Below are positions 5,870 to 23,978 of a DNA stretch of 26,495 bases, piece after piece; within the stretch, counting starts at the first letter, position 1, and each line of letters starts with the position of its first letter. The stretch is from a virus. The position numbers and the translations under genes are program-made. The stretch is taken from positions 1 to 26,495 of IMG/VR virus record IMGVR_UViG_3300033149_004918. One strand, written 5' to 3'. Under the pieces are notes generated by a model. The model ran no database searches and was not told the DNA's origin. It saw only the letters and a list, made by a program, of their open reading frames with translations.

Positions 5870-5950
5870 TGGTATTTATATCCGTGATGGCTATCAGTCG
5901 ATAATGATGACATTAATGATATTTATATATGATCATTTAAATTAAAAATT

Positions 5951-6109
5951 ATGCCAGCACAAAGAGGGAAAGATAAAAAAGGATGTTTTTGGCGTTGGGG
6001 CTCATCGGGTAAGAAATATTATTACAAATGCGGCGACAAAGCGGCATCCACGAGAGCAAAGAAAAAAGCCAATATACAAGGAAGAGCTATTCATGTAAGA
6101 AAAAAATAA
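5951..6109 (+). CDS. Small basic Lys/Arg-rich phage protein
   Basis: This is a 52-residue ORF starting at ATG 5951. The sequence pattern is RGKDKKG, WRWGSSGKKYYY, KCGDK, then a basic helix RAKKKANIQGRAI. I recognise this as resembling small, very basic proteins found among phage head genes, but I know of no proven function; nucleic-acid binding or packaging inside the head is a guess from charge. Its stop TAA shares a base with the ATG of the next glycosyltransferase (TAATG at 6107-6111), which strongly supports both the gene and the downstream start. Two cysteines (C12, C27) are present. Confidence 0.75.
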   Translation: MPAQRGKDKKGCFWRWGSSGKKYYYKCGDKAASTRAKKKANIQGRAIHVRKK

Positions 6110-6768
6110 TGGCTGAAATAGCAATAATAACAAGGTGTCGCAACAGACTTGAATATACTATTCAAACGATTCATCACGTGCAAAAAACGGAGACCGGCAA
6201 CTGGCATCATATTATCATTGACAATAATAGCACTGATGGCACTTATCAATGGTTCAAATGGATGAGTAAAAATACCAAATTGCTCAAAAATCTATCTTAT
6301 TATCATTATGATAATAATTTTGGTGATTGGGGTGGAATGCTTGCGGCACGTAAATTTATAGATAATAGTAAATATGTTGTTCAGCTTGACAATGATATTA
6401 TTGTGCCTCCCGACTGGCTAAAGGCATTAAAAATAATAATAGATAAAACAGATTATCCGGTTGTTATGCTTCGGCGTGAAAATGTTTTATGGAAACTCAA
6501 GCCACTTGGTGAAGAAAAAAATATAGAAGGTTATCTTATTGCCCGCGTTGAACGTGCCGTTGCCTGTTTTATGATGAAACGTGAATTTTTTGATGAATGT
6601 TGCCAGGTAATAACACCGGAGAAAGGCATGCGAAGCAAATATATAATTTCTCAACTGGCCGGGCACAAAGTTTATAAAATATTGAATGTCAAATGTAATG
6701 AAATAGATAGCTTAACACAACGTGATTTATATAATCCTAAAAATCCCCAGGTATGGGAAAAGATATAG
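6109..6768 (+). CDS. Family 2-type glycosyltransferase (second of five)
   Basis: 219 residues. The frame is open from ATG 6028, but the first 27 residues are lysine-rich and unlike a GT start, and they lie entirely inside the 52-residue basic gene in another frame. ATG 6109 gives MAEIAIITRCRNRLEYT, the expected GT-A first strand, and overlaps the previous stop, so I place the start there. The metal motif is DND at 94-96 (VQLDNDIIVPPDWL). HHIIIDNNSTDGTYQW is a clear GT2 nucleotide-binding segment. It is followed after 6 bp by the next glycosyltransferase. Confidence 0.87.
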   Translation: MAEIAIITRCRNRLEYTIQTIHHVQKTETGNWHHIIIDNNSTDGTYQWFKWMSKNTKLLKNLSYYHYDNNFGDWGGMLAARKFIDNSKYVVQLDNDIIVPPDWLKALKIIIDKTDYPVVMLRRENVLWKLKPLGEEKNIEGYLIARVERAVACFMMKREFFDECCQVITPEKGMRSKYIISQLAGHKVYKILNVKCNEIDSLTQRDLYNPKNPQVWEKI

Positions 6769-6774
6769 ATTAAT

Positions 6775-7491
6775 ATGGAACGGCCTGAAATGGATATTAT
6801 AATAGTCAGCAATGGGCGCAGTCCATATTTGAGAACCATAACAAAATATGCAGTTGATACATGTTCTATCTCAAGTAATCTCATACATTTTAATTATATT
6901 ATTGTCGAACAACAGAAAAAAGTAAATTATCACTGGCCAGGAACACAAACGGTGCATTATGATTTTGAATTTAACTATAACCGATGCCTTAATTACGGTT
7001 TGCAATTCGCGAAAAGCAAATATATAGCATTATGTAATAATGATCTTGAATTTAAATATCAGTGGGCAGAAAATATTATAATGGCAATGAAAGATAATTA
7101 TTTAAGTGCTTCACCTGCAGACCGACATTACCGCCGACGGGAGAATGAACCTGCCATTTATGGTATTGAGGAGGGATATAAAATAGCCAAACAATTGAAT
7201 GGATGGTGTATTGTTATTAATCGCAAATTACTTGATTTTATTGGTAAGCTCGATGAAGGTGTCAAGTTCTGGTATTCAGATAATATTTATGGTGACCAGT
7301 TAAAGTCCGGGGATATCAAACATATACTTGTTAAGCATAGTATTGTTCGTCATCTGGGCAGTCGCACACTTCGTGCCGGGAAATACAGGGATTTAATGCG
7401 AAAACAATATAAAAATTATATAAAAGCAAGAAAGAAATATTATGAAAATAGGCATACTAACAGCTGTATGGCAACGGCCAAAGATATTTGA
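6775..7491 (+). CDS. Glycosyltransferase, GT2-like (third of five)
   Basis: 238 residues. MDIIIVSNGRSPYL (start could be Met1 or Met6) is the first strand, and FNYNRCLNYGLQFAKSKYIALCNNDLEF holds the DxD-equivalent NND at 88-90. The C-terminal part contains NGWCIVINRKLLDFIGKLDE and an H-containing VRHLGSRTLR, which recalls the acceptor-side half of GT2 enzymes. It overlaps the next gene by 50 bp in a different frame, a long overlap indicating tight co-translation. Replacement of the first Asp by Asn is common in this family and need not mean inactivity. Confidence 0.83.
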   Translation: MERPEMDIIIVSNGRSPYLRTITKYAVDTCSISSNLIHFNYIIVEQQKKVNYHWPGTQTVHYDFEFNYNRCLNYGLQFAKSKYIALCNNDLEFKYQWAENIIMAMKDNYLSASPADRHYRRRENEPAIYGIEEGYKIAKQLNGWCIVINRKLLDFIGKLDEGVKFWYSDNIYGDQLKSGDIKHILVKHSIVRHLGSRTLRAGKYRDLMRKQYKNYIKARKKYYENRHTNSCMATAKDI

Positions 7492-8182
7492 AATATTCGC
7501 GACAGGAGTAAATCGCCTGCGGGATCAATTCGATATTACACCCGTTGTCGTGGGCAGTGAAGGTGAGGTAAGCAAGAACCTATGCAAAAAATACGGATTC
7601 TTGTATCTTGAACGTCCTAATTATCCGTTGGGCAGGAAATTTAATGCCGGGTTGCAGGTATTTAAAATATTCCATGTCGATTATGTAATTGTAATGGGAA
7701 GTGATGATCTTATATCGAATAGTCTCATTGAAGCATATATGCCATATATGAAAAGAGGACGCGACCTGATAGGTATTCTGGATATTTATTTTTATGATAT
7801 ACGTGTGAAACAACTGCATTACCTGGCGGGTTATGGCAATCGACCGCAGGATAAGCACCGCCGGGGCGAACCACTTGGCCTTGCACGGTGTATTAGTAAT
7901 AAAATGATTAATCTTGTAAACTGGCATCTTTGGGATAATAATGTCAATAAGGGACTGGACTGGACCATGTGGCAAAATCTCCGAAAAGTGCGGTGCAAAC
8001 CCATTACGATAAGACTCACGGATATTAATTCTTTCGCAGTTGACCTGAAAAGCGGGCATAATATATGTGATTTGGGAATATACAGAACTATAGAGGTTGA
8101 TGATAAAATCATGAGACAATCACTTTCAAATAAAGAATTAAAATTAATAGATGATTATACTATTTTATCCGGATCCTCTTGA
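7442..8182 (+). CDS. Glycosyltransferase, GT2-like (fourth of five)
   Basis: 246 residues. MKIGILTAVWQRPKIFEIF is the GT-A first strand. NYPLGRKFNAGLQVFK and VDYVIVMGSDDLIS (D88/D89) supply the nucleotide-sugar site. The second half is more diverged: GEPLGLARCISNKMIN, and LDWTMWQNL near residue 180. The start lies inside the preceding GT gene, and the 3' end overlaps the ATP-grasp gene by 32 bp. Acceptor and donor are unknown. Confidence 0.8.
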   Translation: MKIGILTAVWQRPKIFEIFATGVNRLRDQFDITPVVVGSEGEVSKNLCKKYGFLYLERPNYPLGRKFNAGLQVFKIFHVDYVIVMGSDDLISNSLIEAYMPYMKRGRDLIGILDIYFYDIRVKQLHYLAGYGNRPQDKHRRGEPLGLARCISNKMINLVNWHLWDNNVNKGLDWTMWQNLRKVRCKPITIRLTDINSFAVDLKSGHNICDLGIYRTIEVDDKIMRQSLSNKELKLIDDYTILSGSS

Positions 8183-8993
8183 CAACTATAAACGTTATTC
8201 AAGAGTATTGCGTATTCTTGAAAATTGCGAATGGGTGGATTTTCACAATGATCCTTCAAAAGCCTATGACCTGCATATATTCTGGAGTTATACGCGTGAC
8301 AGGATAGAACCGCCGGAACTGACATTGAAGGATAAAATAGTACTTAACCGTGGCTGCTGGGATATAAGTAAAAAGAAAGTGAACAAGATATTTAATGACA
8401 TAAGCATTGATCCTCGAACACATAAGGGTATAGCCGTTGAGAAACGGGAATGGCAGGGAGGTCATAAATGGCATAGTATTGTTAAATGTCCTCGTGAGCC
8501 GAAGCCGGGATATATTTATCAGCGGGTAATCAATAATCGTGAAGATAATTATTTTGTCCGTTATCGTATTTTCTTGATGGGCAGTGTCATTACACATGTC
8601 AATAAACGCTATGAAACTGACCGTTTTAAAACAAGCACCGTAAGGGTTGAGAATATCTCACCTGATAAGTTTTTTACTAATGATGAAATGATTGATATTC
8701 TTGAAAAATGTCAAAAATTTGGTATTGATTTTGGTGAGCTTGATGTACTTATTGATAATGATAAAAAGATTGTAATTGATGTAAACAATATGGTTGGCGG
8801 TAAACATCCCGGTATATTGGCACGAAGCAAGCCATATAAAGAAATTGATCAGTCATTTCTGGAATATTTAAAAAAAAAAATATATAATGATATATTGGCA
8901 CAAAACAGGCCATATAAAGAAATCGATCAATCAATTCTGGAATATTTAAAAAAAACATATAATGATAACAATAGGATTACCGGTATGGAATAG
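8151..8993 (+). CDS. ATP-grasp fold protein (RimK / D-Ala ligase-like)
   Basis: 280 residues. ATP-grasp enzymes join a carboxylate to an amine or similar group with ATP. The mid region YIYQRVI...YFVRYRIFLMGSVITHVNKRY resembles the RimK-type DxRVxVVGGxVVAAxRR strand pair. The C-terminal metal site reads ELDVLIDNDKKIVIDVNNMVGG, with D198, D210 and N212 in the D-(E/D)-x-N arrangement of ATP-grasp enzymes. The N-terminal 80 residues (FYPDPLDNYKRYSRVLRIL) are not recognised. The C-terminus carries a two-copy tandem repeat (KPYKEIDQSFLEYLKK / RPYKEIDQSILEYLKK). It overlaps its neighbours on both sides by 32 bp, so it belongs to the glycosyltransferase operon. Substrate is unknown. Confidence 0.75.
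   Translation: MIILFYPDPLDNYKRYSRVLRILENCEWVDFHNDPSKAYDLHIFWSYTRDRIEPPELTLKDKIVLNRGCWDISKKKVNKIFNDISIDPRTHKGIAVEKREWQGGHKWHSIVKCPREPKPGYIYQRVINNREDNYFVRYRIFLMGSVITHVNKRYETDRFKTSTVRVENISPDKFFTNDEMIDILEKCQKFGIDFGELDVLIDNDKKIVIDVNNMVGGKHPGILARSKPYKEIDQSFLEYLKKKIYNDILAQNRPYKEIDQSILEYLKKTYNDNNRITGME
8813..8965 (+). repeat. Two-copy in-frame tandem repeat (78 bp + 75 bp)
   Basis: Copy 1 (8813-8890) and copy 2 (8891-8965) both begin TATATTGGCAC and end CATATAATGA or TATATAATGA. They differ by a few substitutions and by a poly-A run of 11 in copy 1 against 8 in copy 2, so the reading frame is preserved. The ATG ending copy 2 (8962) is the start codon of the next gene. Copy 1 carries the matching ATG at 8887, in the same frame but stopping after 20 codons. 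The repeat therefore looks like a duplicated gene boundary. Confidence 0.9.
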
Positions 8994-9675
8994 TCGCGAG
9001 ATAGTATGGCTCGCGATGGAAAGTTTTTGCCGTCAGGAATCAGACTTACCCTGGGAATTGATTATTTACGAAGAAAAACACCGGCAGGCGTGCGGTCCTG
9101 ATTATTTCCGATCATATACAAAACGACTGAATGAGGCGGGATGTGTTAATTTTTCTTATATGACAAACAATAAGAAAAAGGCATTATCTGTAAAATGGGC
9201 CGCATTAGGAAGACAGGCGCATAAAAAAAGCAAGATGTTTTGCGTTTGCGATGCTGACAATTATTATCAGAAATACATGATTAAGGATGCTTATAAAGCA
9301 TATATTGAAGGATATGATTTTATCACAGACAAACAGGGATATGCTTATGATTTTATTAATAAAATATTGGTTAAATATGATAAGCCGGAAGGCAGGACCG
9401 GATTTCAGATGTGTTATGCAACAAATTTAATGCGCTCTCTGCCAAATATCAGAAAAGATAAAATGCTTAATTCGTGGATTTTCGATTCATGTAAGCCCAA
9501 AAGAATAAAAGTAACCAATGAACACGCGATTAACCTTATTACAAATGGATTTAACAATATAACGAGTGAAAGAGGCAAAATGATGAAAAATTTTGAATAT
9601 CCTTTTTATGAAACTAATAAAAAACTTGAAGATATTGTGCCGACTGATATTGCAAAACGATTAAAATTAATATAA
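8962..9675 (+). CDS. Glycosyltransferase, GT2-like (fifth of five)
   Basis: 237 residues. ITIGLPVWNSREIVWLAMES and LPWELIIYEEKH give the GT-A opening. CVCDADNYYQKYM carries a clean DxD (D97, D99). KALSVKWAALGRQAHKKSK sits where GT2 enzymes have their RNxG helix. The end KFEDIV-like KLEDIVPTDIAKRLKL is helical. Start ATG 8962 overlaps the ATP-grasp gene by 32 bp and lies in the second copy of the tandem repeat. It closes the cassette; 121 bp of non-coding DNA follows. Confidence 0.82.
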   Translation: MITIGLPVWNSREIVWLAMESFCRQESDLPWELIIYEEKHRQACGPDYFRSYTKRLNEAGCVNFSYMTNNKKKALSVKWAALGRQAHKKSKMFCVCDADNYYQKYMIKDAYKAYIEGYDFITDKQGYAYDFINKILVKYDKPEGRTGFQMCYATNLMRSLPNIRKDKMLNSWIFDSCKPKRIKVTNEHAINLITNGFNNITSERGKMMKNFEYPFYETNKKLEDIVPTDIAKRLKLI

Positions 9676-10812: not shown

Positions 10813-11709
10813 ATGGATGAAAAAACTATCTTAATTGGCGTTTTGACTAAAACGTTAAATAAGTCTGAGCAGGAAGTCACCGAACTGCTTTATCAAGGAG
10901 AAGGTGAGAATATAGAATTACGGGAGACTGTCATAGATGATATTCTCGCTCTTGATTCGAAGAGAGTTGCGAATATTAAGAAAAATGCACCTGTTGACAA
11001 AGAACGATTGGACAATGAATACAAGCGCGGACAAAAGGAAACGCTTGATAAGTTTGAAAAGTCTTTACGTGATAAATATTCTTTTAATAGTGAAAAAAAG
11101 GGTATGGAGCTTATAGATGAGATTATTTCATCTAATAAAAAGGCGTCTAAATTGACTGATGATGAAGTTAAGAAACATCCCCTTTACGTTGATCTTGAGA
11201 AAGAACGCGTGACTAAGGATGAATATGAAAGGGTGATTAAGGAATATGAAGATTATAAAAAAAAGATTGAACGAGATAATAAATTTGTTTCGATTAAGGA
11301 ACGTGCAAGATTAAAGCTTCAGGAAATGAAGCCTATTGTATCTGATAATGCGTTAGTGGCAAAGACGCGCGAAGAAGATTTTTTGCGTAAATTTGAAATT
11401 TATGATTACCAGATCGATGGAGATAATATCCTGGTTCTTAAATCTGATGGCACGCGCCTCGAAGATGGACACGGCAATCCTTTGCCATTCGATGATCTCG
11501 TCAAACAAATTGCTGTCGTTAATTATGATTTCCCGAGACAAGGTAAAAAAGGCGGGACAGGCGGGACAGGCGGTGGCGAAAATAATAAATCTTTAAATAT
11601 AGTTGTTCCAAAGACACCTGAAGAATATAAACAGGCAATTGAAAACGCTCAGAATATAGATGAAAAAATTGCTATCAAAGAAGCCTATCATGCCCAAGAA
11701 GGCAAATAA
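10813..11709 (+). CDS. Capsid scaffolding protein (putative)
   Basis: 298 residues directly before the major capsid gene, the usual scaffold slot. It is highly charged and predicted coiled-coil over about residues 55-175 (KERLDNEYKRGQKETLDKF; VTKDEYERVIKEYEDYKKK). A short beta-rich section follows (FEIYDYQIDGDNILVLKSDG), then a flexible glycine linker GGTGGTGGG near 247-255 (encoded by a 9-bp repeat), then a helical tail rich in Lys/Glu that may contact the capsid shell. No protease motif is visible. Scaffolds guide shell assembly and leave before DNA entry. Confidence 0.75.
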   Translation: MDEKTILIGVLTKTLNKSEQEVTELLYQGEGENIELRETVIDDILALDSKRVANIKKNAPVDKERLDNEYKRGQKETLDKFEKSLRDKYSFNSEKKGMELIDEIISSNKKASKLTDDEVKKHPLYVDLEKERVTKDEYERVIKEYEDYKKKIERDNKFVSIKERARLKLQEMKPIVSDNALVAKTREEDFLRKFEIYDYQIDGDNILVLKSDGTRLEDGHGNPLPFDDLVKQIAVVNYDFPRQGKKGGTGGTGGGENNKSLNIVVPKTPEEYKQAIENAQNIDEKIAIKEAYHAQEGK

Positions 11710-12780: not shown

Positions 12781-12828
12781 AATATAACATAATGTTATAT
12801 TATTAATGAAACTTACTTCTTAATTTTG
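12781..12828 (+). promoter_or_regulatory. Late promoter module: 21-bp palindrome plus -7 box
   Basis: A perfect palindrome at 12781-12801 has arms AATATAACAT and ATGTTATATT around one central A. Nineteen bp later TAATTTTG (12821-12828) matches TAnnTTTG exactly. The same palindrome, identical in all 21 bases and with the same 40-bp start-to-box distance, recurs at 23931. There is no TTTG at the usual -33 place, so the palindrome may bind an activator or repressor. It drives the connector/tail genes from ATG 12844. Confidence 0.75.
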
Positions 12829-12843
12829 TAAAAAATATACGCC

Positions 12844-13974
12844 ATGAGTATAATCACTACTTCTATCTATGATTGTTATGAATATATCATAGGTCTAAGC
12901 CGTACTGAAGGCAGTTGTTATGATCCTAAGACAGGATTTTTGATTGATTATAATACTTCTTATTCAGGGCTTTATCTTGATGATTTATTACCGTTAAGCC
13001 GTGTTGAAGGCCTTGAGAAAAATGAAGAGAATGTATGGTATATCCTTAACAGGTGCCGTGATACCGGGATAAAAAGATTTGTATCAGATGCACAGGCCGC
13101 ACTTATGGCTAATTATCGATTACGCAATCAGCCTTATAATGGTATAATTGGACGCGTGAAACACACAAGAGACCGCGTGCTTAATACAATTTACGCGGGA
13201 GTGCAGTTTTATTGCAAAGATTATCGCGGAGCGGTACTAACGATTAACAATATAGGTACGATAATGAATTATACCGGGACGGTTGATATTACAGTATATG
13301 ACAATACCGGTAATACACATGGTTCTTATACACTTAATTGCGTCACGGATACATTAACGTTAAATGCCATAACACCACTTGAATTGCCTCTGCATGATGA
13401 TTATGTCGAGAATATAAGATATTATTTCATGTATGAGCTTGCGGGCAACGCACCGCGCAATAATGATCTTCATTGTAATTGTGGATCCGTGCGGCCTGTC
13501 TTTAATCCTAATCGCCCATATTTTACAAAGAGTTTCGGTGGCCGCTTTAATTGGGCTAATTACGTGATGGTAGGAGGCTGTGAGACCAATGATCTTGATT
13601 TTGATGAGAATGATCACGGAGGTTCTAATTATATGAATGGACTGATATTCGATGTTGAATTGCGTTGTCATATATCTGGTATGCTCTGTGATGAGAGCCT
13701 TGATTATAATGCAGATCCGACTGCTATGTCGATAGCTTTTGCAGTCCTTTATGCTTCGGCCATAGATATTATAGAAAGGCTTTTCTCTGATCCGCGCCTT
13801 AATCTGACTAAGATAAAGGATAAAGAATACCTGGCAGTGCGACAGAAAGAATTTGAGACACTTTACAAGGAAAAAATTACTTATATAATTGATACTATAG
13901 ATAAAAGAAAAACTGATTGTATCCTTTGCCGCGATACGGGTCCGACACTTCATAGAAAACCGTTATTATTATGA
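12844..13974 (+). CDS. Putative head-tail connector / virion structural protein
   Basis: 376 residues and not clearly in a family I can name. The N-terminus is helical with cysteines (YDCYEYIIGLS, ILNRCRD). The middle is beta-rich (GAVLTINNIGTIMNYTGTVDITVYD) and the C-terminus is helical (FAVLYASAIDIIERLF; YLAVRQKEFETLYKEK). This plan would fit an adaptor carrying an inserted beta domain, and the position right after the capsid gene fits a connector. Clustered cysteines (HCNCGS; CILCRD) might bind metal. The stop overlaps the next start as ATGA. It heads the promoter-driven tail operon. Confidence 0.6.
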   Translation: MSIITTSIYDCYEYIIGLSRTEGSCYDPKTGFLIDYNTSYSGLYLDDLLPLSRVEGLEKNEENVWYILNRCRDTGIKRFVSDAQAALMANYRLRNQPYNGIIGRVKHTRDRVLNTIYAGVQFYCKDYRGAVLTINNIGTIMNYTGTVDITVYDNTGNTHGSYTLNCVTDTLTLNAITPLELPLHDDYVENIRYYFMYELAGNAPRNNDLHCNCGSVRPVFNPNRPYFTKSFGGRFNWANYVMVGGCETNDLDFDENDHGGSNYMNGLIFDVELRCHISGMLCDESLDYNADPTAMSIAFAVLYASAIDIIERLFSDPRLNLTKIKDKEYLAVRQKEFETLYKEKITYIIDTIDKRKTDCILCRDTGPTLHRKPLLL

Positions 13975-14576
13975 CACTTGAACAAGCCATAACAAAAATA
14001 GACCAATTAAGGAAAAAGGTTGTAACCGATCTGCCAAAAGAAATAGTGCAGATAGCAAGTGTTGATATTGCAGCTATGATAGCCGACAGGGTGGTAAAAA
14101 CACAAACGAATTTCAGGGGTAATAAGTTTAGCAGGTATTCAACCAGGCCAATACTTACATCCGGCACAACAATAAAAAGTCGCAGGGTATGGCAGGCTAT
14201 GGCTTCATCAAAACGCAAACGCCGGGAACTTGATTGGGTTACCATCAAGAAAGGAGGCAAGAATATTCACCTCTTCGAAATAAAAGGCGGTTATGCCGAA
14301 TTGCGAAAGATTGAAGGATTTACAAATACAAATAAATCATTTGAATTCACGACCGAAATGTGGCGCAAGTTTGGGGTTAAAAAAGTAACTTATTCGGGAG
14401 GTGTGATAAGGATAACACTCGGCGGCAAAACAGATGAGTCGCAAAAAAAGATAAATATGAATAGCAAACGCGAGGGTATTAATATAATAGCAGCCAATAA
14501 AGATGAAGTGAAATTTTTACGTGAACGCGTGGATAAGATATTAAGGGGATATATCACAGAATTAAAATTAAACTGA
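13971..14576 (+). CDS. Tail completion / neck protein (HK97 gp10-like, putative)
   Basis: 201 basic residues. The N-terminal helix (TLEQAITKIDQLRKKVVTDL) is followed by DRVVKTQTNFRGNKFSRYSTRPI, then KGGYAELRKIEGFTN and a series of strands with FTTEMWRKFGVKKVTYSGG. This order of helix, FRG-x-F-x-YS, GYxxLR and a T-x-M strand is the pattern of gp10/gpS-type neck or tail completion proteins. Start ATGA overlaps the previous stop, and its own stop shares a base with the next ATG. It probably seals the head-tail joint. Confidence 0.65.
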   Translation: MTLEQAITKIDQLRKKVVTDLPKEIVQIASVDIAAMIADRVVKTQTNFRGNKFSRYSTRPILTSGTTIKSRRVWQAMASSKRKRRELDWVTIKKGGKNIHLFEIKGGYAELRKIEGFTNTNKSFEFTTEMWRKFGVKKVTYSGGVIRITLGGKTDESQKKINMNSKREGINIIAANKDEVKFLRERVDKILRGYITELKLN

Positions 14577-15175
14577 TGAATGCAAGAATAGCAGAATTAT
14601 TACGTGATCAGATTGACGGGCTTGAATTTGTCGAGCGCACCGCAGGGCTTGTACGCAGCCTGCCGATGAAGATAGAGACAGAAGAAGGCACGATAACAAA
14701 AAATATCCCGGTTGCTTTAAATAATGAAACACCATGCGAACCCGAAGAAATGATGGCACTGGTTCCGGATTCTGATAAAATGAGCATAGTATTTTTTGAA
14801 GACGCGGGGACAAATATTACACGGCGTGATTCATGGTATATCCATTGTGAAAGTACATTAACAATGGTGGCATGGTTTAACCTGCCGATGATAAACCCCG
14901 ATTACACGGACGCTACACTTCTTATGGCCCATCTCGTGGCGGCAATACCCAAATATATAAACAATGATGATTTTATTACCCGTATTCTTGTTGTACCTAT
15001 TGGTGAGCTTGATAAAGAAACTGTTTATAGCCAGTATGATCTTGATCTCGCGGAAAATATGTATTTTGCATTTCCTTATGATTACGCGGCATTTCAATTT
15101 AAAGTGATTTTTGCCATACCGAAAAATTGTCTTGATGAAATAATTATAAATCCCGATCAATGTTTTTTGAAATAA
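14576..15175 (+). CDS. Tail terminator-like protein (putative)
   Basis: 199 residues. The early helix (ARIAELLRDQIDGLEFVE) is followed by strands, an acidic middle (NETPCEPEEMMALVPDSDKM), a strand-rich stretch ESTLTMVAWFNLPM, and a helix in DATLLMAHLVAAIPKYI. This layout resembles tail terminator proteins (lambda gpU class), which cap the tube and join it to the head. Position after the gp10-like gene agrees. Sequence similarity is too weak for certainty. It overlaps the following membrane protein gene by 16 bp. Confidence 0.5.
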   Translation: MNARIAELLRDQIDGLEFVERTAGLVRSLPMKIETEEGTITKNIPVALNNETPCEPEEMMALVPDSDKMSIVFFEDAGTNITRRDSWYIHCESTLTMVAWFNLPMINPDYTDATLLMAHLVAAIPKYINNDDFITRILVVPIGELDKETVYSQYDLDLAENMYFAFPYDYAAFQFKVIFAIPKNCLDEIIINPDQCFLK

Positions 15176-15444
15176 AAATAGCAATATTTGCCTTTGTCTT
15201 TTGTGAGCTTTTGATTACCGAAGGCAATATTTTAGGTTTTTATGGCCGGTTTCTTGAGCGGTTGCCCGGATGGGTGGCCATGCCGCTCGGTCTTTGCGCT
15301 AAATGTTTTGCCGGACAGCTGGCTTTATGGAGTTATTTTTTTAACTGCTCGCAATATAATATAATGCAGCATTTATTTGCTGTCATTTTCACTATATTTT
15401 TTACAGAAATAATAGTTGTTATATATGGCAAAATTCAAATGTAA
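15160..15444 (+). CDS. Small membrane protein with CxxC motif
   Basis: 94 residues. There are two strong hydrophobic segments: about residues 5-27 (IKIAIFAFVFCELLI) and 68-89 (MQHLFAVIFTIFFTEIIVV). Between them lies a third, moderately hydrophobic stretch with a C46-x-x-C49 pair (PLGLCAKCFAGQLALW). The pattern recalls small phage inner-membrane proteins of the DUF1360 kind. A holin is possible from size and topology, but its place among tail genes and the conserved-looking CxxC argue against a simple holin call. It overlaps both neighbours. Confidence 0.65.
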   Translation: MFFEIKIAIFAFVFCELLITEGNILGFYGRFLERLPGWVAMPLGLCAKCFAGQLALWSYFFNCSQYNIMQHLFAVIFTIFFTEIIVVIYGKIQM

Positions 15445-15580
15445 ACGGTGCAATGAGGTATTTTGGATAGATAAAAAAGTTAATTACAACCGGTGCAAAC
15501 ATTACTGGTACTGGATAAAAGATAAAAGAAGGATGATTATACAATGCAAATGCGGAACAGTTAATATACAAAAATTATGA
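15425..15580 (+). CDS. Cys-rich zinc-ribbon-like mini protein
   Basis: 51 residues, basic, too short for usual ORF cut-offs. Cysteines are C6 and C9 (FKCKRCNEVFW), C24, C41 and C43 (CKCGTV), an arrangement suggesting one bound zinc. The gene overlaps the membrane protein gene by 20 bp. Its stop overlaps the following start as ATGA (15577-15580), which supports real translation. The 3' part (from 15521) is included in a 161-bp tandem duplication. Function is unknown; a rubredoxin-like or nucleic-acid-binding mini domain is possible. Confidence 0.7.
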   Translation: MAKFKCKRCNEVFWIDKKVNYNRCKHYWYWIKDKRRMIIQCKCGTVNIQKL

Positions 15581-15842
15581 AAAAAACAAAACGATTGCCA
15601 ATCACGGCAAAAACATTCAAAGCTAATAGTAATGAATATCTTATTACTGACACCATGATTATTGAGCGATGGAAATATCAAGATAAAAGAATGATGATTA
15701 TACAATGCAAATGCGGAACAGTTAATATACAAAAATTATGAAAAAAACAAAACGATTGCCAATCACGGCAAAAACATTCAAAGCTAATGGTAATGAATAT
15801 CTTATTACTGACACCATGAGTATTGAGCGATGGAAATATCTT
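15521..15842 (+). repeat. 161-bp tandem duplication across a gene junction
   Basis: Copy 1 runs 15521-15681 and copy 2 15682-15842 (period 161). By eye they differ at only three internal positions (AAGG/AATG, AATAGT/AATGGT, ATGATT/ATGAGT) plus the last two bases. Each copy holds the last 20 codons of the zinc-ribbon gene and the first 35 codons of the tail chaperone gene. Because 161 is not a multiple of 3, the junction fuses the chaperone start in copy 1 to the zinc-ribbon end in copy 2. Confidence 0.95.
15577..15741 (+). CDS. Chimeric 54-residue ORF made by the duplication
   Basis: It starts with the chaperone's own N-terminus (MKKTKRLPITAKTF ... IIERWKYQ, 35 residues) and continues in frame into the C-terminal end of the zinc-ribbon protein (DKRMMIIQCKCGTVNIQKL). 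Its start overlaps the zinc-ribbon stop (ATGA 15577-15580) and its stop overlaps the true chaperone start (ATGA 15738-15741), so translational coupling through the operon is preserved. Whether the peptide has a function is unknown. It may simply be a tolerated by-product, or may have been kept because it preserves coupling. Confidence 0.6.
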   Translation: MKKTKRLPITAKTFKANSNEYLITDTMIIERWKYQDKRMMIIQCKCGTVNIQKL

Positions 15843-16250
15843 GAGGATTTTCAGGACTTGCTCGGTTGGGGCCGATCATTTGATGATCTTTTTAAACAAT
15901 TGCGCAGGGCTTATGAGCTGATGGATGAAGGTAAACAAAATGAGCCCCGTATCATTATTCACAATATTCTTACCGGAATGAAGCAAAAACTTGAACAGCG
16001 TTATCATCCGGCTCTCATGTTATGCACGCTTTTTATAGTGCGAAAAGATGAGGATCAGACAATATATAATGAAGAATTTATGAAGGAAAAAATCAAAGAC
16101 TGGACGGCCGAAGGATACGACATTAATGATTTTTTTCAGCTGGCCTGGACCTTAGTGCCAGGCTTTATAAAACATTATCAAGACGACATGGCAAATACTT
16201 TAAACCAGTTGACACCGGAGCAATTAGAAGTATTGAGCAAGGGAAAATGA
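15738..16250 (+). CDS. Tail assembly chaperone, G-like
   Basis: 170 residues. By position (directly before the tape measure) and by the frameshift site at its end, this is the functional equivalent of lambda gpG. Such chaperones coat the tape measure during tail assembly and are absent from the finished virion. The protein is mostly helical (IERWKYLEDFQDLLGW; FKQLRRAYELMDEGK; EPRIIIHNILTGMKQKLEQRY). Its last codons are AAG GGA AAA TGA, giving a G-GGA-AAA slippery heptamer. The first 35 codons are inside copy 2 of the 161-bp duplication. Confidence 0.8.
   Translation: MKKTKRLPITAKTFKANGNEYLITDTMSIERWKYLEDFQDLLGWGRSFDDLFKQLRRAYELMDEGKQNEPRIIIHNILTGMKQKLEQRYHPALMLCTLFIVRKDEDQTIYNEEFMKEKIKDWTAEGYDINDFFQLAWTLVPGFIKHYQDDMANTLNQLTPEQLEVLSKGK
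16241..16247 (+). other. Programmed -1 frameshift site GGGAAAA
   Basis: The heptamer is in the correct phase (G GGA AAA, then TGA at 16248-16250). A -1 slip re-pairs as GGG AAA and continues with ATG at 16247, exactly into the following frame. The pattern is equivalent to lambda GGGAAAG in gpG-T. A possible downstream stem CTGGGC (16264-16269) / GCCCAG (16289-16294) starts 16 nt later, rather far for a classical stimulator. Efficiency cannot be judged from sequence. Confidence 0.85.
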
Positions 16251-16447
16251 AACGCGACCTGTTCTGGGCGGACATAATAACGCGGGTGGCCCAGGGCAGC
16301 GCGATGACATACGGGGAATGCAAGCGGTTGGATGTGGATGAATTTTTTGTACTGCTTATGAATTATGAATATAAAATAAAACAACATGGCAGACGTACTA
16401 CTGAACATACAGGCAAAGATAAAGGGTCTCGAGGAAAAACTCGATAA
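16247..16447 (+). CDS. Tail assembly chaperone T-like domain (frameshift extension)
   Basis: 66 residues in the -1 frame relative to the G-like gene. Read by frameshift it extends that protein from 170 to about 236 residues, the gpGT arrangement. Alternatively, ATG 16247 overlapping the stop as ATGA could allow reinitiation. DLFWADIITRVAQGSAMTYGE and DVDEFFVLLMNYEYKIKQ form the likely helical T domain, which in lambda binds the tape measure/tube. The Arg/Lys-rich tail (RRTTEH ... GSRGKTR) lies over the first 62 bp of the tape measure gene. Confidence 0.78.
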   Translation: MKRDLFWADIITRVAQGSAMTYGECKRLDVDEFFVLLMNYEYKIKQHGRRTTEHTGKDKGSRGKTR

Positions 16448-19064
16448 GACTAATAAAGAATTAAAAAAATTAGGCAGCGAGGGTAAGAATGTCGAGAAGC
16501 AGGTAAATCAGAGTTTTGATAATATGAAAAAGAAGGTACGCCAATTTGCCATGTATTTCGGGGTTGCCATTGGTGGTGCCGCCGTTGTCGGTGCTATTAA
16601 AAAAAGCATTGATGCAATGAAAGAATTTGAGCAGACTTTCTCTAATGTGCTTACTCTTTTATCGGAGGCCGAACGCAAAAAGTTAGGTGGTTTTCTCCGG
16701 GAGGGCACTATCGAACTGATGCGTAATTATGGATTTGCCATCCAGGATGTCAACAAGGCACTTTTTGATAGTATCTCTGCAGGTATCAAGGCAGGAGATA
16801 GTATTAAATTTATGAATGAGGCAGCTAAACTTGCTAAAGGTGGCGTTACATCATTGAGTATTGCCGTGGATGGAATGACTTCTATAATGAATGCATATAG
16901 ATTAAATGCCAAAGATGCGGAAAAAGTAAGTGCGGCCTTTTTTACTGCCCAGAAATACGGAAAAACCACGGTTGAGGAACTTGCATCAAGTATTGGCCGC
17001 GTTGCGCCGATAGCGAAAGATGCCAATATATCATATCAGGAAATGTTATCTGCACTTGCTCTTTTAACTACTCAGGGTATATCAACTGATGAAGCTGTTA
17101 CAGGTTTACGTGCCACTATTGTTGCTCTGACTAATCCCGCGAAACAAGCACAGGAAACACTCTCGGATTTAGGTGTGGAATCAGGTAAAACAGCTATCCG
17201 GCAGAATGGACTTGGTAAAACTCTTTTACAAGTTGCCCGGGCTGCCGAGAAAGATGCCGATAAGCTTGGCGAGATGATACCTAATGTACGTGCCCTGACT
17301 GCCGTTGCCGCACTTGGTGAAGAAGCATTGTCTGAATATGATGAAATACTCGAAGAGGTAAATGAAGATTACGGCGAAGGATCATCGCTCGCACAGGCTT
17401 ATACTTTACAAATGGGAACTCTTTCTTCAAGTATAGACCGTATTAAAGGTGGTGCTGAAACTGCTAAAATAGCATTGGGTAAATTTTTTGCTCCACTAAT
17501 AAAGGGATTTGCTGATCTTATTGCGCCTGTTGAAAAATCAAGTGAAGCACTTATCAAACAACGTACACGGCTTAATTTACTTGCAGGGGCCATAATCAGT
17601 ACATCAAGTACAGAAGAATCGAGATTAAGACTTATTGAACAACTTAATGCTGAATATCCCGATTTCCTTAAAGGTCTTGACACTGAAAAAGTGACTAATG
17701 AAGAAATAGAAATAGCATTAAAAAATGTCAATGAACAATATGAGAAAAAGATAAAACTTGCTATTGCGCAGGAAATATATAATCAACAGGCTGCCGAACT
17801 CGCGGCATTAACACTTGAAGAAAGCAGGTTGTTAATAGAACAGGAAGAAATATTAAACAAGAATGTTGATAATTTAATAGGCTTGCAGACAGCATCAAAA
17901 GCGACTGCATTGGTAAAAGTCTTATTTGCAAAAGGATTAATTGATGAAAGTAAGGCATTAGCTGAAAATATATTGTTCCTTCAAAAAAATAGAGATGCAC
18001 AAAAAGAACAGAATGAAGTAACGAAAAAAGCGCTTGAAAATCTTAATAAGTTGATTGATACTTATGGTAAAATTGAGGGCGTTGGAAGCGGTATTGATGA
18101 TGATGGTATTGATCCCGGGAAAACACAATCAGCACTTGATGAAATACTTGAAAAATGGTGGAAACATTTTTTACAGATAGATACTGCACAGGACGATTGG
18201 GCTAAACGAATGATAGAAGGCGATAATGCTTTACAATCTGCTATGGCTGATATAGATAAAGAATATAATGAGGCTGAACTTGAGGCACTAAGACAACAAA
18301 ATAAATACAAAAAACAAATAGAAGAAGATCATATTGAATTTTTGCGTACGAAAGAAGAAATACATCGCGCACTTATAGAGGAAAAATGGAATACTGCATT
18401 TGCTCTTTTAGATGCTTATACAGCATTCAGTCAAAGATCAATGCAAAAAGAACTTGAAGCGGCTAAAGGGAATGAAGAAAAAAAGGAAGAAATACGGAAG
18501 AAATATGCACGTAAAGAACAGATTATGGCAGTATTGCGTACTATCATGGCTGGGGCAGAAGGAATAGTTAAAACGGGCGCTAATCTTGGTTATCCGGCTG
18601 CTATCCCATTTCAGATATTACAAGGAATACAAACAGCTGCACAAATAGCTATTATTGCATCACAAAAATTTGAAAAAGGAGGCTACAAAATTCTCGGAGG
18701 CAAACGTCATGCCGATGGCGGTACCCGGATAGCAATAGGAGAGGCAGAACGCGGCGAGGGACATGCTGTATTCTCACGATGGGCAACAGAGAGATATGGC
18801 CGCATCCTGCCTGATCTTGTTGATGCTATCAATAAAGGTGAATTTCCATCGGTGGATATGACTGTGCAACAAAAGATAGAAGCAGGGGATAAGCTGATGA
18901 GATTTACGCATACAGTATCACTTGATGAGAGCAGACAGCTCGAGGAAATAAAAAAACTCCTTGCCCGGGACCGCGAACAGATAATATTTGAAACAGATCG
19001 CGAAGGCAATCGTTATAAGATAACACAGAAAAAAGGATATTATAAAAAAATGAAAATAAGATGA
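16386..19064 (+). CDS. Tail tape measure protein (TP901 type)
   Basis: 892 residues. It sets tail length and in many phages helps DNA cross the envelope. The N-terminal coiled coil (IKGLEEKLDKTNKELKKLG) is followed by a hydrophobic segment at about 53-75 (FAMYFGVAIGGAAVVGAI). The TP901 core spans about 85-340 (FEQTFSNVL; ALFDSISAGIKAGDS; LALLTTQGISTDEAVTGLRA). Long helices follow, then a second hydrophobic region near 713-760 (AIPFQILQGIQTAAQIAII) and a C-terminal domain GGYKILGGKRHADGGTRIAIG. By the lambda ruler rule (about 0.15 nm per residue) the tail would be about 130 nm. ATGA overlap with the next gene. Confidence 0.93.
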   Translation: MADVLLNIQAKIKGLEEKLDKTNKELKKLGSEGKNVEKQVNQSFDNMKKKVRQFAMYFGVAIGGAAVVGAIKKSIDAMKEFEQTFSNVLTLLSEAERKKLGGFLREGTIELMRNYGFAIQDVNKALFDSISAGIKAGDSIKFMNEAAKLAKGGVTSLSIAVDGMTSIMNAYRLNAKDAEKVSAAFFTAQKYGKTTVEELASSIGRVAPIAKDANISYQEMLSALALLTTQGISTDEAVTGLRATIVALTNPAKQAQETLSDLGVESGKTAIRQNGLGKTLLQVARAAEKDADKLGEMIPNVRALTAVAALGEEALSEYDEILEEVNEDYGEGSSLAQAYTLQMGTLSSSIDRIKGGAETAKIALGKFFAPLIKGFADLIAPVEKSSEALIKQRTRLNLLAGAIISTSSTEESRLRLIEQLNAEYPDFLKGLDTEKVTNEEIEIALKNVNEQYEKKIKLAIAQEIYNQQAAELAALTLEESRLLIEQEEILNKNVDNLIGLQTASKATALVKVLFAKGLIDESKALAENILFLQKNRDAQKEQNEVTKKALENLNKLIDTYGKIEGVGSGIDDDGIDPGKTQSALDEILEKWWKHFLQIDTAQDDWAKRMIEGDNALQSAMADIDKEYNEAELEALRQQNKYKKQIEEDHIEFLRTKEEIHRALIEEKWNTAFALLDAYTAFSQRSMQKELEAAKGNEEKKEEIRKKYARKEQIMAVLRTIMAGAEGIVKTGANLGYPAAIPFQILQGIQTAAQIAIIASQKFEKGGYKILGGKRHADGGTRIAIGEAERGEGHAVFSRWATERYGRILPDLVDAINKGEFPSVDMTVQQKIEAGDKLMRFTHTVSLDESRQLEEIKKLLARDREQIIFETDREGNRYKITQKKGYYKKMKIR

Positions 19065-20908
19065 GCGTAATTACCGATATATATACACATTATATCGAAG
19101 GGACACAGGTTTATCCATCAGGTGAATGGGAAATAGTACACAGGTTTCCTGAAGGTTGTATTTTTTCACGCCGCGAATTTTCGGGCACGCTCACCTTTGG
19201 TAATATAAGACATAATGGTATATCTGATGATTATGATTATTTAATGGGCTTTGGTGAACAATATTGTCAGCGGTTGAATTACGAGATTTATTGCAATGAT
19301 GAACTTTATTGGGAAGGATATATCAATCACACGATAGGATATGAAATAGACGAAGATAATTGCACGATAAAAACAACGCCATTGCTTTCTGATGAATATG
19401 ATTGTTTTGTTATTTACGGCGATATAGAATATGAGTTTACTAATTTCAATCCTTTTATTAATACTGTTGTTTATGATGATGACGGTGCGCCGCCATACCC
19501 GATAGAAGCCGAGTTTAATACTTATAGGCTCACTGAGATAATGAGCGACATGATTACACAAGCCGCTTTTCTTGATGCCGATGATGTTTGTGGCTTTGCC
19601 GGCAATATTAAAAGCTCATTTTTTTGGAACGATGATTACCCTGATGCAACAGCAGTAACAAGCAATTATATTACCGGTGTTGATTACTGGGATGATATTC
19701 TCTTACAACGTCTTTCTTACGTGCGTAATCAGTTAGGAGGCACTGCGACACTTGTACTTCAACAAATCACTTTCAATAAACTCATGGGATGGTTGCGTGA
19801 TATGTTTAATGTTTATTGGTATATAGACAGTAATGGTGATTTTCGCATGGAACACCTGCATTATTTCGAACATGATTTTGCTGACCGCGATCATACAGAA
19901 TTGCCTGATGATATTGATCTGATAACAATAGAAAATGATTATAATGATAAATCTATTTGTCTTTATAAAAACAAATGGAAAAATATTGAATCAGAATTAC
20001 CTTCTGTTGAAATTTTTGAGATGCTTGATGCTGATACTGATGATTTTGTCGGATTACCTATTTATTATGATGAAGAATGTACTTATAATTATCCTACTAT
20101 ACAAAGAAAAGAATATATACAAAGTGAGATATTTACAGATTTGCCTATGATTATAGCAGATGCAGATAGTGTTGCGGGTGATGGGTTTATGTTTTTTGCG
20201 GCCAAATATGAAGATATATTTAAAGATACTGATGATTTGAATGATTGGCCTAATAATGATTTTGATATATTATTCGCTAATGTCGGGGCCGCTATCGGCA
20301 CTGCTAATGATGGTGGTGGTGGTTGTTTTGCAAAATCAAATAACTTCGGGGCCTGTGTTGCCGGGCAGGTATATAATATTTATATAGAGGGATATAATAA
20401 TATTGCCGGACAGGATCCAAGTATTCAAATAGTTGATGCAGCCAATAATTTAAGAAGTAATATAGTTGTTGTTAATGCCTCGGGTATTTATAGTCTGACA
20501 ATAACGGCCGGGGCCGGATTTAATGGTTATCTTTATATCACCCATACCCTCGCTTGTGATTGGTTGTGGACAGATTGTGTAATTGATCTTGTAGAAAACG
20601 AATGGGTTGTACAATACGATACAGGTGCTATAAGTGCATTGAACCGCAATAATGGGCATCTTTCCGTTGCTAACCTGATGGATAATTATTGGCGTCATGG
20701 ACGGGTGCTTGACGAAGGTATAATGAATGGCAATCCAGAAATATTTGATAGTATCAGACCTAACAGATTACAGGTAAAGATAATAATACCCAAATGCTGC
20801 GAACGTATTCATTGGAATACTTATTATGATACTTACCTGGGAAAAGGCAAGATATATAAAGCATTGGAGAAAAAATATACTCATGAAATAGAATTACTTT
20901 ACGAATGA
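19061..20908 (+). CDS. Baseplate hub / distal tail-like protein (putative)
   Basis: 615 residues directly after the tape measure, where distal tail and tail-associated hub proteins sit. The N-terminal part (about 1-100) is strand-rich (EWEIVHRFPEGCIFSRREFSG; LNYEIYCNDELYWEGYINH). Middle helices follow (FNKLMGWLRDMFNVYWYID). Residues about 360-520 look like a separate beta-sandwich of carbohydrate-binding style (GQVYNIYIEGYNN; ASGIYSLTITAGAGFNGYLYI). The end is a hub-like strand set (LQVKIIIPKC). It is acidic overall. The stop overlaps the next start as ATGA. The hub call is from order and size, not a decisive motif. Confidence 0.6.
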   Translation: MSVITDIYTHYIEGTQVYPSGEWEIVHRFPEGCIFSRREFSGTLTFGNIRHNGISDDYDYLMGFGEQYCQRLNYEIYCNDELYWEGYINHTIGYEIDEDNCTIKTTPLLSDEYDCFVIYGDIEYEFTNFNPFINTVVYDDDGAPPYPIEAEFNTYRLTEIMSDMITQAAFLDADDVCGFAGNIKSSFFWNDDYPDATAVTSNYITGVDYWDDILLQRLSYVRNQLGGTATLVLQQITFNKLMGWLRDMFNVYWYIDSNGDFRMEHLHYFEHDFADRDHTELPDDIDLITIENDYNDKSICLYKNKWKNIESELPSVEIFEMLDADTDDFVGLPIYYDEECTYNYPTIQRKEYIQSEIFTDLPMIIADADSVAGDGFMFFAAKYEDIFKDTDDLNDWPNNDFDILFANVGAAIGTANDGGGGCFAKSNNFGACVAGQVYNIYIEGYNNIAGQDPSIQIVDAANNLRSNIVVVNASGIYSLTITAGAGFNGYLYITHTLACDWLWTDCVIDLVENEWVVQYDTGAISALNRNNGHLSVANLMDNYWRHGRVLDEGIMNGNPEIFDSIRPNRLQVKIIIPKCCERIHWNTYYDTYLGKGKIYKALEKKYTHEIELLYE

Positions 20909-23034
20909 CAGCACTTAAATTCTATATAAATGACGATAAGGCACATGAATGGCATGACCTGCGGCATTATCATTCTATCGTGCCGGCTGTGCTGCAATGC
21001 ACCACAAGTTATCTCGTTACTTTCTGTATGAATTATGAATCGACAGGTGCAATTATAGATGATGTTGTAATTGAATATATTGATGAATCGGAACTTGCGC
21101 TTGATGATACAAGCGTATTTGATATTTATAGCGACGGCGAACGGGACTGGATTGTTTATAATGAAGATGAAGTTGAAAGTGGCGGAGCACCACTGGAACC
21201 GGGACTTGCACGCCTGAGAATAGAGATGTCAAACGGTGATAAATTTTATAGCGATTATTTTCAGATATGTGATATTAATACTTCATCTGATGGTGACAGA
21301 CTTTATTATGATGATTATTTTAACATTTATTTTTCCTCTGTCTGTGATTTCAGGGCTAAATATAGAATACTTTATCACACTGGTTACGAAAATCATCATG
21401 CCTTTGATTCTAAACCCATAAGGCCCGATAATAATTATTCATCCGATGGGGAGATAGATGAAGCACAGAATGAATTCGTGGAATTGCAATCTAATAAAAA
21501 GATATACAGGGTTGAAATAATAGGCGGTGAAAGTCTTTTCGATATGCTTGCGGTACTCCCATTACATGATAATATTCATGTACGGTGGCCGGGCGAAGAG
21601 ATGCAGACAGCCTATAATGTTGAATTTGAATATGATTGGGTGGATGATTATTTATGTCGCATGATTATTAAATTTTCACTCGTTAATCTTAAAAAAGGAA
21701 CCTGCGATACCGATTTTGAATTAATAGATAATTTTGAATTTAAATTTTCTTCCATGCTTACTCCTTCACTTATACGCAATGAAGAAGGGGATAACCTCAG
21801 TGAAAGTGGAACAACTACATTGATAGAGATAATTGACAAGGCCGGGAATATACTGACCCTTAATACATTACCCGAAAATTTAATAAATGAAGATATTGAT
21901 TGGTTTGCTATGTCACTTGATGCCGGTGATTTTAATGGAGGTGCAGATCCCAGTTATGAAGGAGATTATACAGCCCAGGAAAAGATTACAGATTTTGATT
22001 TCATAAATAAAAAGATAACAATTGTTGATGCAACCGATTTCGATATCGGGGAAAATATTGCTATTTATTCTCCATGGGCAAATTATGAATTTCAACCAGG
22101 CCAGGAAACTGAAGGTATAATAACAATAGGAGCTGGTGAACCAGCATGGAAAAATGCTAATAATTCAGCCGGCCCATCCTGGTATGATGAAGAAAATAGC
22201 CGTTTTATTCTTTTATTCGGAGGACATGATGGCAGCAATTATCAAACCGGGTTCGCGTATAGTCCGGATGCTGAAAACTGGACATTAGGGAATAGCGGTA
22301 ATCCAATTATAGAAAATGGCGATGATGCTGATTTTTCAACTCACGTGCAACCCACGGGCAATGCTATTGATCTGGGTAATGGTAAAATGGCTTTTGTTCT
22401 TAATGGTTATGATGGCAGCAATTGGAATATATATTACTGTGAGTGTGATAAAAATGATCCAGCGAGCGGATTGTCATGGACGAAAATAACAAATACAACT
22501 AATGAATTTGGAGGAGGCTTTGTATTTTTTGATAGTAAATATCATTTACTTACAAGTACCATGGGATCGCCTGTTGAAAATCGCTATAACCGTCATTATA
22601 CTTGCGTGACCATTGATGGCACTTATTCATTACTTGCCAATATGTGGACTAATGAATATAACAATAAAGACAGTCATTGGCTTGAGGGACATAGTACTAA
22701 CTGTGTACCATTCGTTGAAAACAATAAATTATATGCTATTATTGGTGGTACACAACGTTATCTTATCTCAGCTATCCGTGGTAATCGTGTTATCGGTGGA
22801 TTGATGATTTATAGCGGGGGATCATGGAGTGTCGTTAATGATTTTGCTCCTGAATTTATTTTCCCTATGTATTTTTATAATATTCCAAGTGAAGATTATG
22901 GATGGGCAGGTGGCCATTCTGGCGGTTATACCTCATGGATATATCATGATGGTACTACTTATTTTTTCTGTGGATTTTTGCGATTAAGAAATACTTACCA
23001 GGTAGCTTGTCTCAAATTAATAGATAGAACATAA
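20905..23034 (+). CDS. Tail tip protein with C-terminal beta-propeller-like region
   Basis: 709 residues. Residues 1 to about 275 are clearly paralogous to the next gene: shared MTAL-FY, HSIVP, VESGG, YSDYF-ICD, TGYENH, KKIY-VEIIGGESLFDML and DDYLCRMI motifs, roughly half identical by eye. Residues 280-410 are a beta-rich linker (KITIVDATDFDIGENIAIYSP). Residues 415-709 contain five repeats of a strand pattern with a bulky-GG or dG-x-W turn (FILLFGGHDGS; MAFVLNGYDGS; YHLLTSTMGS; LYAIIGGTQRY; TYFFCGFLRLR), suggesting a five-bladed propeller like glycosidase clans GH32/43/117. Catalytic acids cannot be assigned. Likely a receptor-binding or glycan-degrading tip protein. Confidence 0.65.
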   Translation: MTALKFYINDDKAHEWHDLRHYHSIVPAVLQCTTSYLVTFCMNYESTGAIIDDVVIEYIDESELALDDTSVFDIYSDGERDWIVYNEDEVESGGAPLEPGLARLRIEMSNGDKFYSDYFQICDINTSSDGDRLYYDDYFNIYFSSVCDFRAKYRILYHTGYENHHAFDSKPIRPDNNYSSDGEIDEAQNEFVELQSNKKIYRVEIIGGESLFDMLAVLPLHDNIHVRWPGEEMQTAYNVEFEYDWVDDYLCRMIIKFSLVNLKKGTCDTDFELIDNFEFKFSSMLTPSLIRNEEGDNLSESGTTTLIEIIDKAGNILTLNTLPENLINEDIDWFAMSLDAGDFNGGADPSYEGDYTAQEKITDFDFINKKITIVDATDFDIGENIAIYSPWANYEFQPGQETEGIITIGAGEPAWKNANNSAGPSWYDEENSRFILLFGGHDGSNYQTGFAYSPDAENWTLGNSGNPIIENGDDADFSTHVQPTGNAIDLGNGKMAFVLNGYDGSNWNIYYCECDKNDPASGLSWTKITNTTNEFGGGFVFFDSKYHLLTSTMGSPVENRYNRHYTCVTIDGTYSLLANMWTNEYNNKDSHWLEGHSTNCVPFVENNKLYAIIGGTQRYLISAIRGNRVIGGLMIYSGGSWSVVNDFAPEFIFPMYFYNIPSEDYGWAGGHSGGYTSWIYHDGTTYFFCGFLRLRNTYQVACLKLIDRT

Positions 23035-23868
23035 ATGACAGCACTTGAATTTTATACAGACAATGGTTTACATGAATGGGAGAATCTTCAGCATTATCAT
23101 TCTATCGTGCCGGTAGCTCTTCGCTGCGGAACGGGTAATCTTATCCCATTCTGTTTGAATTACCTGACTATAGGTGAGTCTATAGATGATATTACTATTG
23201 AATATTTCGATGGTGCAATACTTGCCATCGATGATACCAGTGATTTTATAATAAATAGTGATGGCACATGGGATTGGATTATTTACAACGGCGAAGATGT
23301 AGAAAGTGGTGGCATGGAGCTTGATACGGGACTTGCAAGAATAATCATCAGGCTTGACGGTGGAACTTTATTTTACAGTGATTATTTTGAAATATGCGAT
23401 CTTGATATGACTTTCGATTGTGGTAAAAATGTTTATGATAATTATTTCAACCTGTATTTTTCGGCCGAACATGATATGCCGGCACCTTATAATATTGTCT
23501 ATCAGACAGGATATGAGAATCATTTAATATTCGATACCCTGCCCGTGCGTCCCGATAGCATGATTAATATTGAAGGTGAAACTGATGAGTCTCAGGATGA
23601 ATCCATTACTTATCAATCACAGAAAAAGATATACCATGTTGAAATAATAGGCGGCGAGAGTCTTTTCGATATGTTATCCATTCTCCCTATGCATGAATAT
23701 ATCTATGTTAAATGGCCATGCGAGGATCTTCAGTTGATAAAAACTATTGAATTTGAATATGAATGGATTGAGGATTACTTATGTCGTATGATTTTAAGTT
23801 TTAGCTTTGAACATCTCGAAAAAAGTGAATGTTGCAAATTGAATAACTACGAGGTTGAATTGAAATGA
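23035..23868 (+). CDS. Short paralog of the preceding tail tip protein
   Basis: 277 residues, collinear with the first 275 residues of the preceding protein but lacking its propeller-like extension. Identical short blocks include TGYENH, EIIGGESLFDML, YLCRMI and HYHSIVP. It starts with ATG immediately after the preceding TAA (no intergenic base). Its domain is strand-rich and acidic, which suits a baseplate or fibre-anchoring module. It is the last gene before the second palindrome-promoter. The pair probably arose by tandem duplication followed by gain or loss of the C-terminal domain. Confidence 0.65.
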   Translation: MTALEFYTDNGLHEWENLQHYHSIVPVALRCGTGNLIPFCLNYLTIGESIDDITIEYFDGAILAIDDTSDFIINSDGTWDWIIYNGEDVESGGMELDTGLARIIIRLDGGTLFYSDYFEICDLDMTFDCGKNVYDNYFNLYFSAEHDMPAPYNIVYQTGYENHLIFDTLPVRPDSMINIEGETDESQDESITYQSQKKIYHVEIIGGESLFDMLSILPMHEYIYVKWPCEDLQLIKTIEFEYEWIEDYLCRMILSFSFEHLEKSECCKLNNYEVELK

Positions 23869-23930: not shown

Positions 23931-23978
23931 AATATAACATAATGTTATATTTTGCACAAAATCTTATTCTTAATTTTA
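23931..23978 (+). promoter_or_regulatory. Late promoter module: second 21-bp palindrome plus -7 box
   Basis: The palindrome at 23931-23951 is identical to that at 12781-12801, and TAATTTTA (23971-23978, 7/8 match to TAnnTTTG) again lies exactly 40 bp from its start, preceded by the shared TTCT. A TTTG at 23951 could act as a -33 element, although the spacing is slightly short. It drives the gene group starting at ATG 24006. Confidence 0.75.

Follow-up and report, generated by a model that had tools for sequence, protein, structure and literature searches.

The 26,495-bp record of a bacterial virus analysed here, a metagenomic contig that is called the window throughout, carries a 161-bp tandem duplication. 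The duplicated piece spans the ATGA that links a small cysteine-rich ORF to the gene of a tail assembly chaperone, and the duplication joins the start of the second gene to the end of the first in a 54-aa chimeric ORF. We consider it probable that this was simply a tandem duplication in phase with the overlap, that the fusion ORF is a drifting by-product of it, and that coupling to the full chaperone, as it is read from the gene overlaps, would be kept by way of a second ATGA.

The two copies of the duplication, at 15519-15679 and 15680-15840 on the plus strand, are direct and stand head to tail. The first holds chaperone codons 1-34 preceded by the 3' end of the cysteine-rich ORF, and the second is identical to it at 158 of 161 positions (98.1%). 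With a TRF score of 623 the 161-nt repeat is the top tandem repeat in the window by a wide margin, and 161 nt at 98% identity is far beyond chance. There are exactly three sites at which the copies differ (15531 G/15692 T, 15628 A/15789 G and 15659 T/15820 G). The copy-to-copy junction reads ATATC|AAGATAAAAG, and inspection of this junction sequence revealed no microhomology. A sequence-only reading of the same DNA had described a 161-bp tandem duplication with about three differences between its copies, covering the ATGA by which the cysteine-rich ORF and the chaperone overlap and leaving neither parent gene broken. The coordinates and counts above agree with that description, and the 51-aa and 170-aa parent ORFs are both open; its span of 15521-15842 places the duplication correctly but runs 2 too high, the true span being 15519-15840. 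The duplication is real and fairly recent, and it is overall an ordinary one.

Depending on its phase, a tandem-duplication breakpoint can fuse the 5' part of a gene with the 3' part of the adjacent one, both parents staying intact. The chimera described here resembles such breakpoint fusion ORFs in its position at a tandem duplication breakpoint between intact parents, but differs from them in that its parents overlap by ATGA, so that the fusion inherits both a start and a stop overlap, and in that it has been inserted into a chain of overlapping genes (the window genes from 12844 to 23868 are overlapping or almost gapless). The fusion ORF (15577-15741, plus strand) consists of chaperone residues 1-34 followed by the C-terminal 20 residues encoded by the cysteine-rich ORF, reads ...ERWKYQDKRMMIIQ... 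over the duplication junction and has ATGA overlaps with its neighbours at 15577-15580 and 15738-15741. The in-frame join of 54 codons with ATGA at both ends had been recognized correctly by the earlier reading, which went on to interpret it as a case of gene birth. That interpretation is not supported, as an open frame with two ATGA ends is expected one time in three from the length of the duplication alone. The unit length is 161 = 3x53+2 and the parent frames are offset by just this step, which is why the fusion ends at the genuine chaperone start. When 42,589 tandem duplications of 60-400 nt over the ATGA overlap were enumerated by simulation, 33% were in phase, i.e. had a length of 3n+2. 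Any 3n+2 duplication over the overlap leaves the fusion open with ATGA at each end, the two ends being copies of one ancestral ATGA. Of the 28,452 out-of-phase duplications only 10 terminated no farther than 15 nt from the ATGA that contains the second ATG, and in these phases translation stopped a median of 51 nt ahead of the chaperone start. Since openness and ATGA ends are automatic, they do not count as evidence of gene birth, and the open fusion frame needs no explanation beyond a 1-in-3 event.

The cysteine-rich ORF (51 aa, 15425-15580, plus strand) starts 20 nt inside the 3' end of the gene directly upstream, which encodes a small membrane protein with a conserved CxxC and GQ (15160-15444, plus strand). 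Its cysteines are arranged as C6-x2-C9 and a second pair, C41-x-C43, that is shorter than the usual CxxC, and the label of putative zinc ribbon comes solely from this pattern (CxxC...CxC); no PHROG matched 15425-15580, and Pfam gave only DUF7695 at an E value of 0.48, below the cut-off. No homologues of the ORF were found among viral contigs, named phages, PHROG or Pfam. Six related records (L001, L002, L031-L033 and L035) contain the chaperone without the cysteine-rich ORF and without the duplication. In these relatives the membrane-protein gene runs straight into the chaperone with an overlap of 8 to about 23 nt, similar in kind to the 20-nt overlap in the window, so the cysteine-rich ORF is most simply seen as a probable addition in the lineage of the window. 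The idea that this ORF arose when the chaperone start was duplicated on a previous occasion was also considered and dropped, as no similarity was visible by eye.

The gene downstream of the duplication (15738-16250, plus strand, 170 aa) had been taken for a tail chaperone, and its position and frameshift architecture uphold this. The protein had no match in PHROG, none above cut-off in Pfam and none that was significant in the PDB, and the weak viral matches from a fold search include annotated tail assembly chaperones, the best at E 0.09. Since these searches gave nothing significant, the assignment draws on the position of the gene before the tape measure gene and on its frameshift architecture, by which we identify it, from sequence, as a G-like chaperone of the lambda G/GT type with a predicted frameshift. 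The predicted -1 slippery site, GATTTTTTT (16128-16136, plus strand, with the heptamer T TTT TTT at 16130-16136), is invariant in seven sequences, those of the window and of the same six relatives. Across this site the -1 frame is open, and after it the frame is conserved in the seven sequences with 23 invariant columns (FFSxGLELSSRLY...KYFEPYE...KMKRDLFW), giving a T domain at 16130-16447 (plus strand) with protein conservation from the slip site onward. An ATG at 16247 lies inside this domain, and the ORF that begins there is only the 3' part of T; in L001 and L002 the T domain lacks an ATG. The order chaperone, T, tape measure protein (16386-19064, plus strand; phrog_991, E 7.6e-56) is found in the window and likewise in L001 and L002. 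A GGGAAAA heptamer at 16241 was also tried as the slip site and was replaced by the conserved T7 run at 16130, which fits the relatives.

The lambda G/GT tail assembly chaperone is made with a -1 programmed frameshift (reviewed in PMC5009743). The window gene is like its lambda counterpart in its location just 5' of the tape measure gene, in its invariant slippery run and in a T that is conserved in the -1 frame. It differs in lacking any match to known chaperones that is significant by sequence or fold, in a T7 slip site about 110 nt short of the G stop, and in being preceded by the duplication and a small cysteine-rich ORF.

The earlier reading had proposed that the single-copy form be sought in close relatives. 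Six relatives without the duplication exist, as described above, but all of them are at or below about 50% identity and also lack the cysteine-rich ORF. The chaperone, cysteine-rich ORF, portal, tape measure, T and degenerate DNA patterns were used as queries against viral contigs, genome contigs and named phages, and no single-copy sister was found among these, the region being covered only by relatives of about 50% identity or less. The contig L005 (99.6% identical, from IMG/VR sample 3300033141) ends at window position 8525, and L006-L009 likewise stop before the duplication. The fusion ORF was not found in a second genome among the records searched, none of which is a close relative at the locus. 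Relatives of the portal are uncultured phages, one of them in a Bacteroidia MAG, and there is weak similarity to Polaribacter phages; these relationships make a Bacteroidota host likely.

The relatives allow two of the three copy differences to be polarised. Chaperone residue G18 is invariant across 9 sequences and is G in the full chaperone and S in the fusion (G18S), while position 28, which is always S, N, C, G or T in these sequences, is S in the full chaperone and I in the fusion (S28I). Both changes are assigned to the fusion because the full chaperone keeps the residues that are conserved in relatives. The 15531/15692 difference, which gives R in the cysteine-rich ORF and M in the fusion, is not polarisable. 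All three of the three differences are missense, and this, together with the changes at invariant G18 and at S28, further counters the claim of gene birth. The window and L005 are 99.58% identical over 8,525 bp with 36 differences, and all 34 of the 34 differences in non-overlapping coding DNA are synonymous; dN/dS between the two is about 0.014 over all genes. The probability that three of three differences are missense is about 0.33-0.51 if the fusion is neutral, and falls to 0.01-0.02 with omega at 0.1 and to 5e-5 to 1.5e-4 with omega at its phage-wide value of 0.014. The three copy differences, two of them derived in the fusion, thus give no sign of purifying selection on the fusion protein and point to a fusion that is probably not under such selection, a modest result with n = 3, since estimates of selection from only three differences are weak.

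The spectrum and the number of these differences were also considered. Two of the three (15531/15692 and 15659/15820) are G/T transversions. Synonymous differences between the strains comprise 33 transitions versus 1 transversion, and under this bias two transversions among three changes have a probability of about 0.016, which makes simple drift a poor explanation; errors made as the piece was duplicated would suffice, as would positive selection or chance. The one-lineage divergence of the fusion is 3/161 or 1.9% (95% interval 0.4-5.4%), and synonymous divergence between the two strains, which covers two lineages, is 2.3%. By this comparison the age of the duplication would be about that of the strain split, with a several-fold uncertainty either way, and the youth that had been claimed for it is confirmed in these relative terms. 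Gene conversion between the copies, judged from one genome only, is not needed as an explanation.

The course of events that we favour begins with a 161-bp piece that was duplicated in tandem, without microhomology, inside a dense run of overlapping head and tail genes. The frame opened by the first chaperone start now leads into the second copy of the cysteine-ORF 3' end and stops at the second, genuine chaperone start. The fusion would be translated as a by-product through termination-reinitiation at the first ATGA, and its stop at the second ATGA would pass the ribosome to the full chaperone and so preserve translational coupling, though the extra reinitiation step may reduce chaperone output. 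The fusion protein itself would be drifting without purifying selection. Huber et al. (2019) tested 14 gene pairs with ATGA/TGATG overlaps and found strict coupling in 13 of them, and Shine-Dalgarno motifs are almost unused in Bacteroidetes (PMC6728339). The window shares with these pairs the 4-nt overlap, present at both ends of the fusion, and differs in that its coupling is read from the overlaps and in that one link of the chain is a by-product ORF. The other two phases would usually stop far from the chaperone start and may have been selected against, so that selection acting on the chaperone, rather than on the fusion, may have decided which phase persisted. The locus is a clean worked example of an open and neatly overlapping fusion ORF that, taken alone, gives no evidence for gene birth, as phase gives such an ORF in one third of cases. 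It also suggests a rule, namely that duplications over ATGA overlaps in tightly coupled operons would survive mostly in phase because the other phases uncouple the next gene.

Alternative readings assign a function to the fusion or to the duplication, or dispute that the duplication exists. A newly functional 54-aa fusion, for example a regulator derived from the chaperone in which the N-terminal beta hairpin is still in use, would be consistent with a frame that is open, has ATGA at its start and end and has acquired no stop, with a single-sequence structure model that is all-beta (mean pLDDT 72) and with the hairpin of residues 13-23, which is the best-predicted part of the predicted chaperone structure. 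The transversion-rich missense changes are also compatible with positive selection. We nevertheless regard a birth of this kind as improbable: the openness and ATGA ends are inherited mechanically, every copy difference is missense, glycine 18 has been lost, only the CxC of the cysteine-rich ORF's cysteines is retained, and no second genome among the records searched holds the fusion. The five structure models of the fusion disagree (mean pLDDT 40 to 72), and the model, being single-sequence and inconsistent, was left out as evidence. The more specific proposal, that the fusion is a working new small protein that arose from a duplicated ATGA overlap and is already diverging under positive selection, is a shade more doubtful still; if true, ATGA overlaps would readily supply new coupled genes.

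An assembly error is unlikely as the source of the tandem copies, because the distinguishing sites are at most 97 nt from their neighbours and the junction sequence occurs in neither flank. The idea that the genome holds a single copy, and that the tandem form came from the assembler or from a chimeric fragment, accordingly has little to recommend it: three distinguishing sites at that spacing can be resolved by short reads, the junction is in neither single-copy form, and comparison with the separately assembled L005 gave one transversion in 8.5 kb, which indicates that consensus errors are rare. These points stand against the facts that the tandem copies are known from a metagenomic contig alone and that the copy differences, two G-T and one A-G, are unlike the strain spectrum. 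A merger of two strain alleles into a tandem form was ruled out, as the junction is in neither allele. It is similarly doubtful that the duplication was favoured through the amount of chaperone relative to the tape measure or major tail protein. Each copy includes 58 nt 5' of the chaperone start, so that the initiation context is fully duplicated, and an extra termination-reinitiation step could reduce chaperone levels, or a second start could increase them. Lambda tail assembly depends on the ratio of G to GT (PMC5009743), but that ratio would be set at the slip site at 16130-16136, which is unaltered, and drift equally explains the persistence of a young duplication. An in-phase duplication with a drifting by-product remains the reading that we prefer.

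Additional features were observed elsewhere in the window and its relatives. A second, older in-frame tandem duplication (8813-8877/8891-8955, 78-bp period, 91% identical) lies at the 3' end of the ORF at 8151-8993, whose L008 orthologue (10971-11708) has one repeat copy. Counterparts of 14576-15175 (L033 39-1241; L032 1132-2460, minus strand) have a C-terminal region of more than 200 residues that is absent from the window. The tail-region neighbours at 20905-23034 and 23035-23868 are paralogues with stretches of 70-74% identical DNA, the former having a long extra C-terminal part relative to the latter. A run of glycosyltransferase-like ORFs, recognized by eye, occurs among the head genes at 5261-9675, an unusual place within a head module; L008 also has such a run, plus further ORFs of this type, again by eye. 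Lastly, a palindromic element, ATATAACATAATGTTATAT, occurs exactly at 12782-12800 and 23932-23950, in intergenic gaps, and more weakly at 7022, 9721 and 19205, giving five matches with at most 3 mismatches versus 0.13 expected; it is possibly a regulator site or a terminator.
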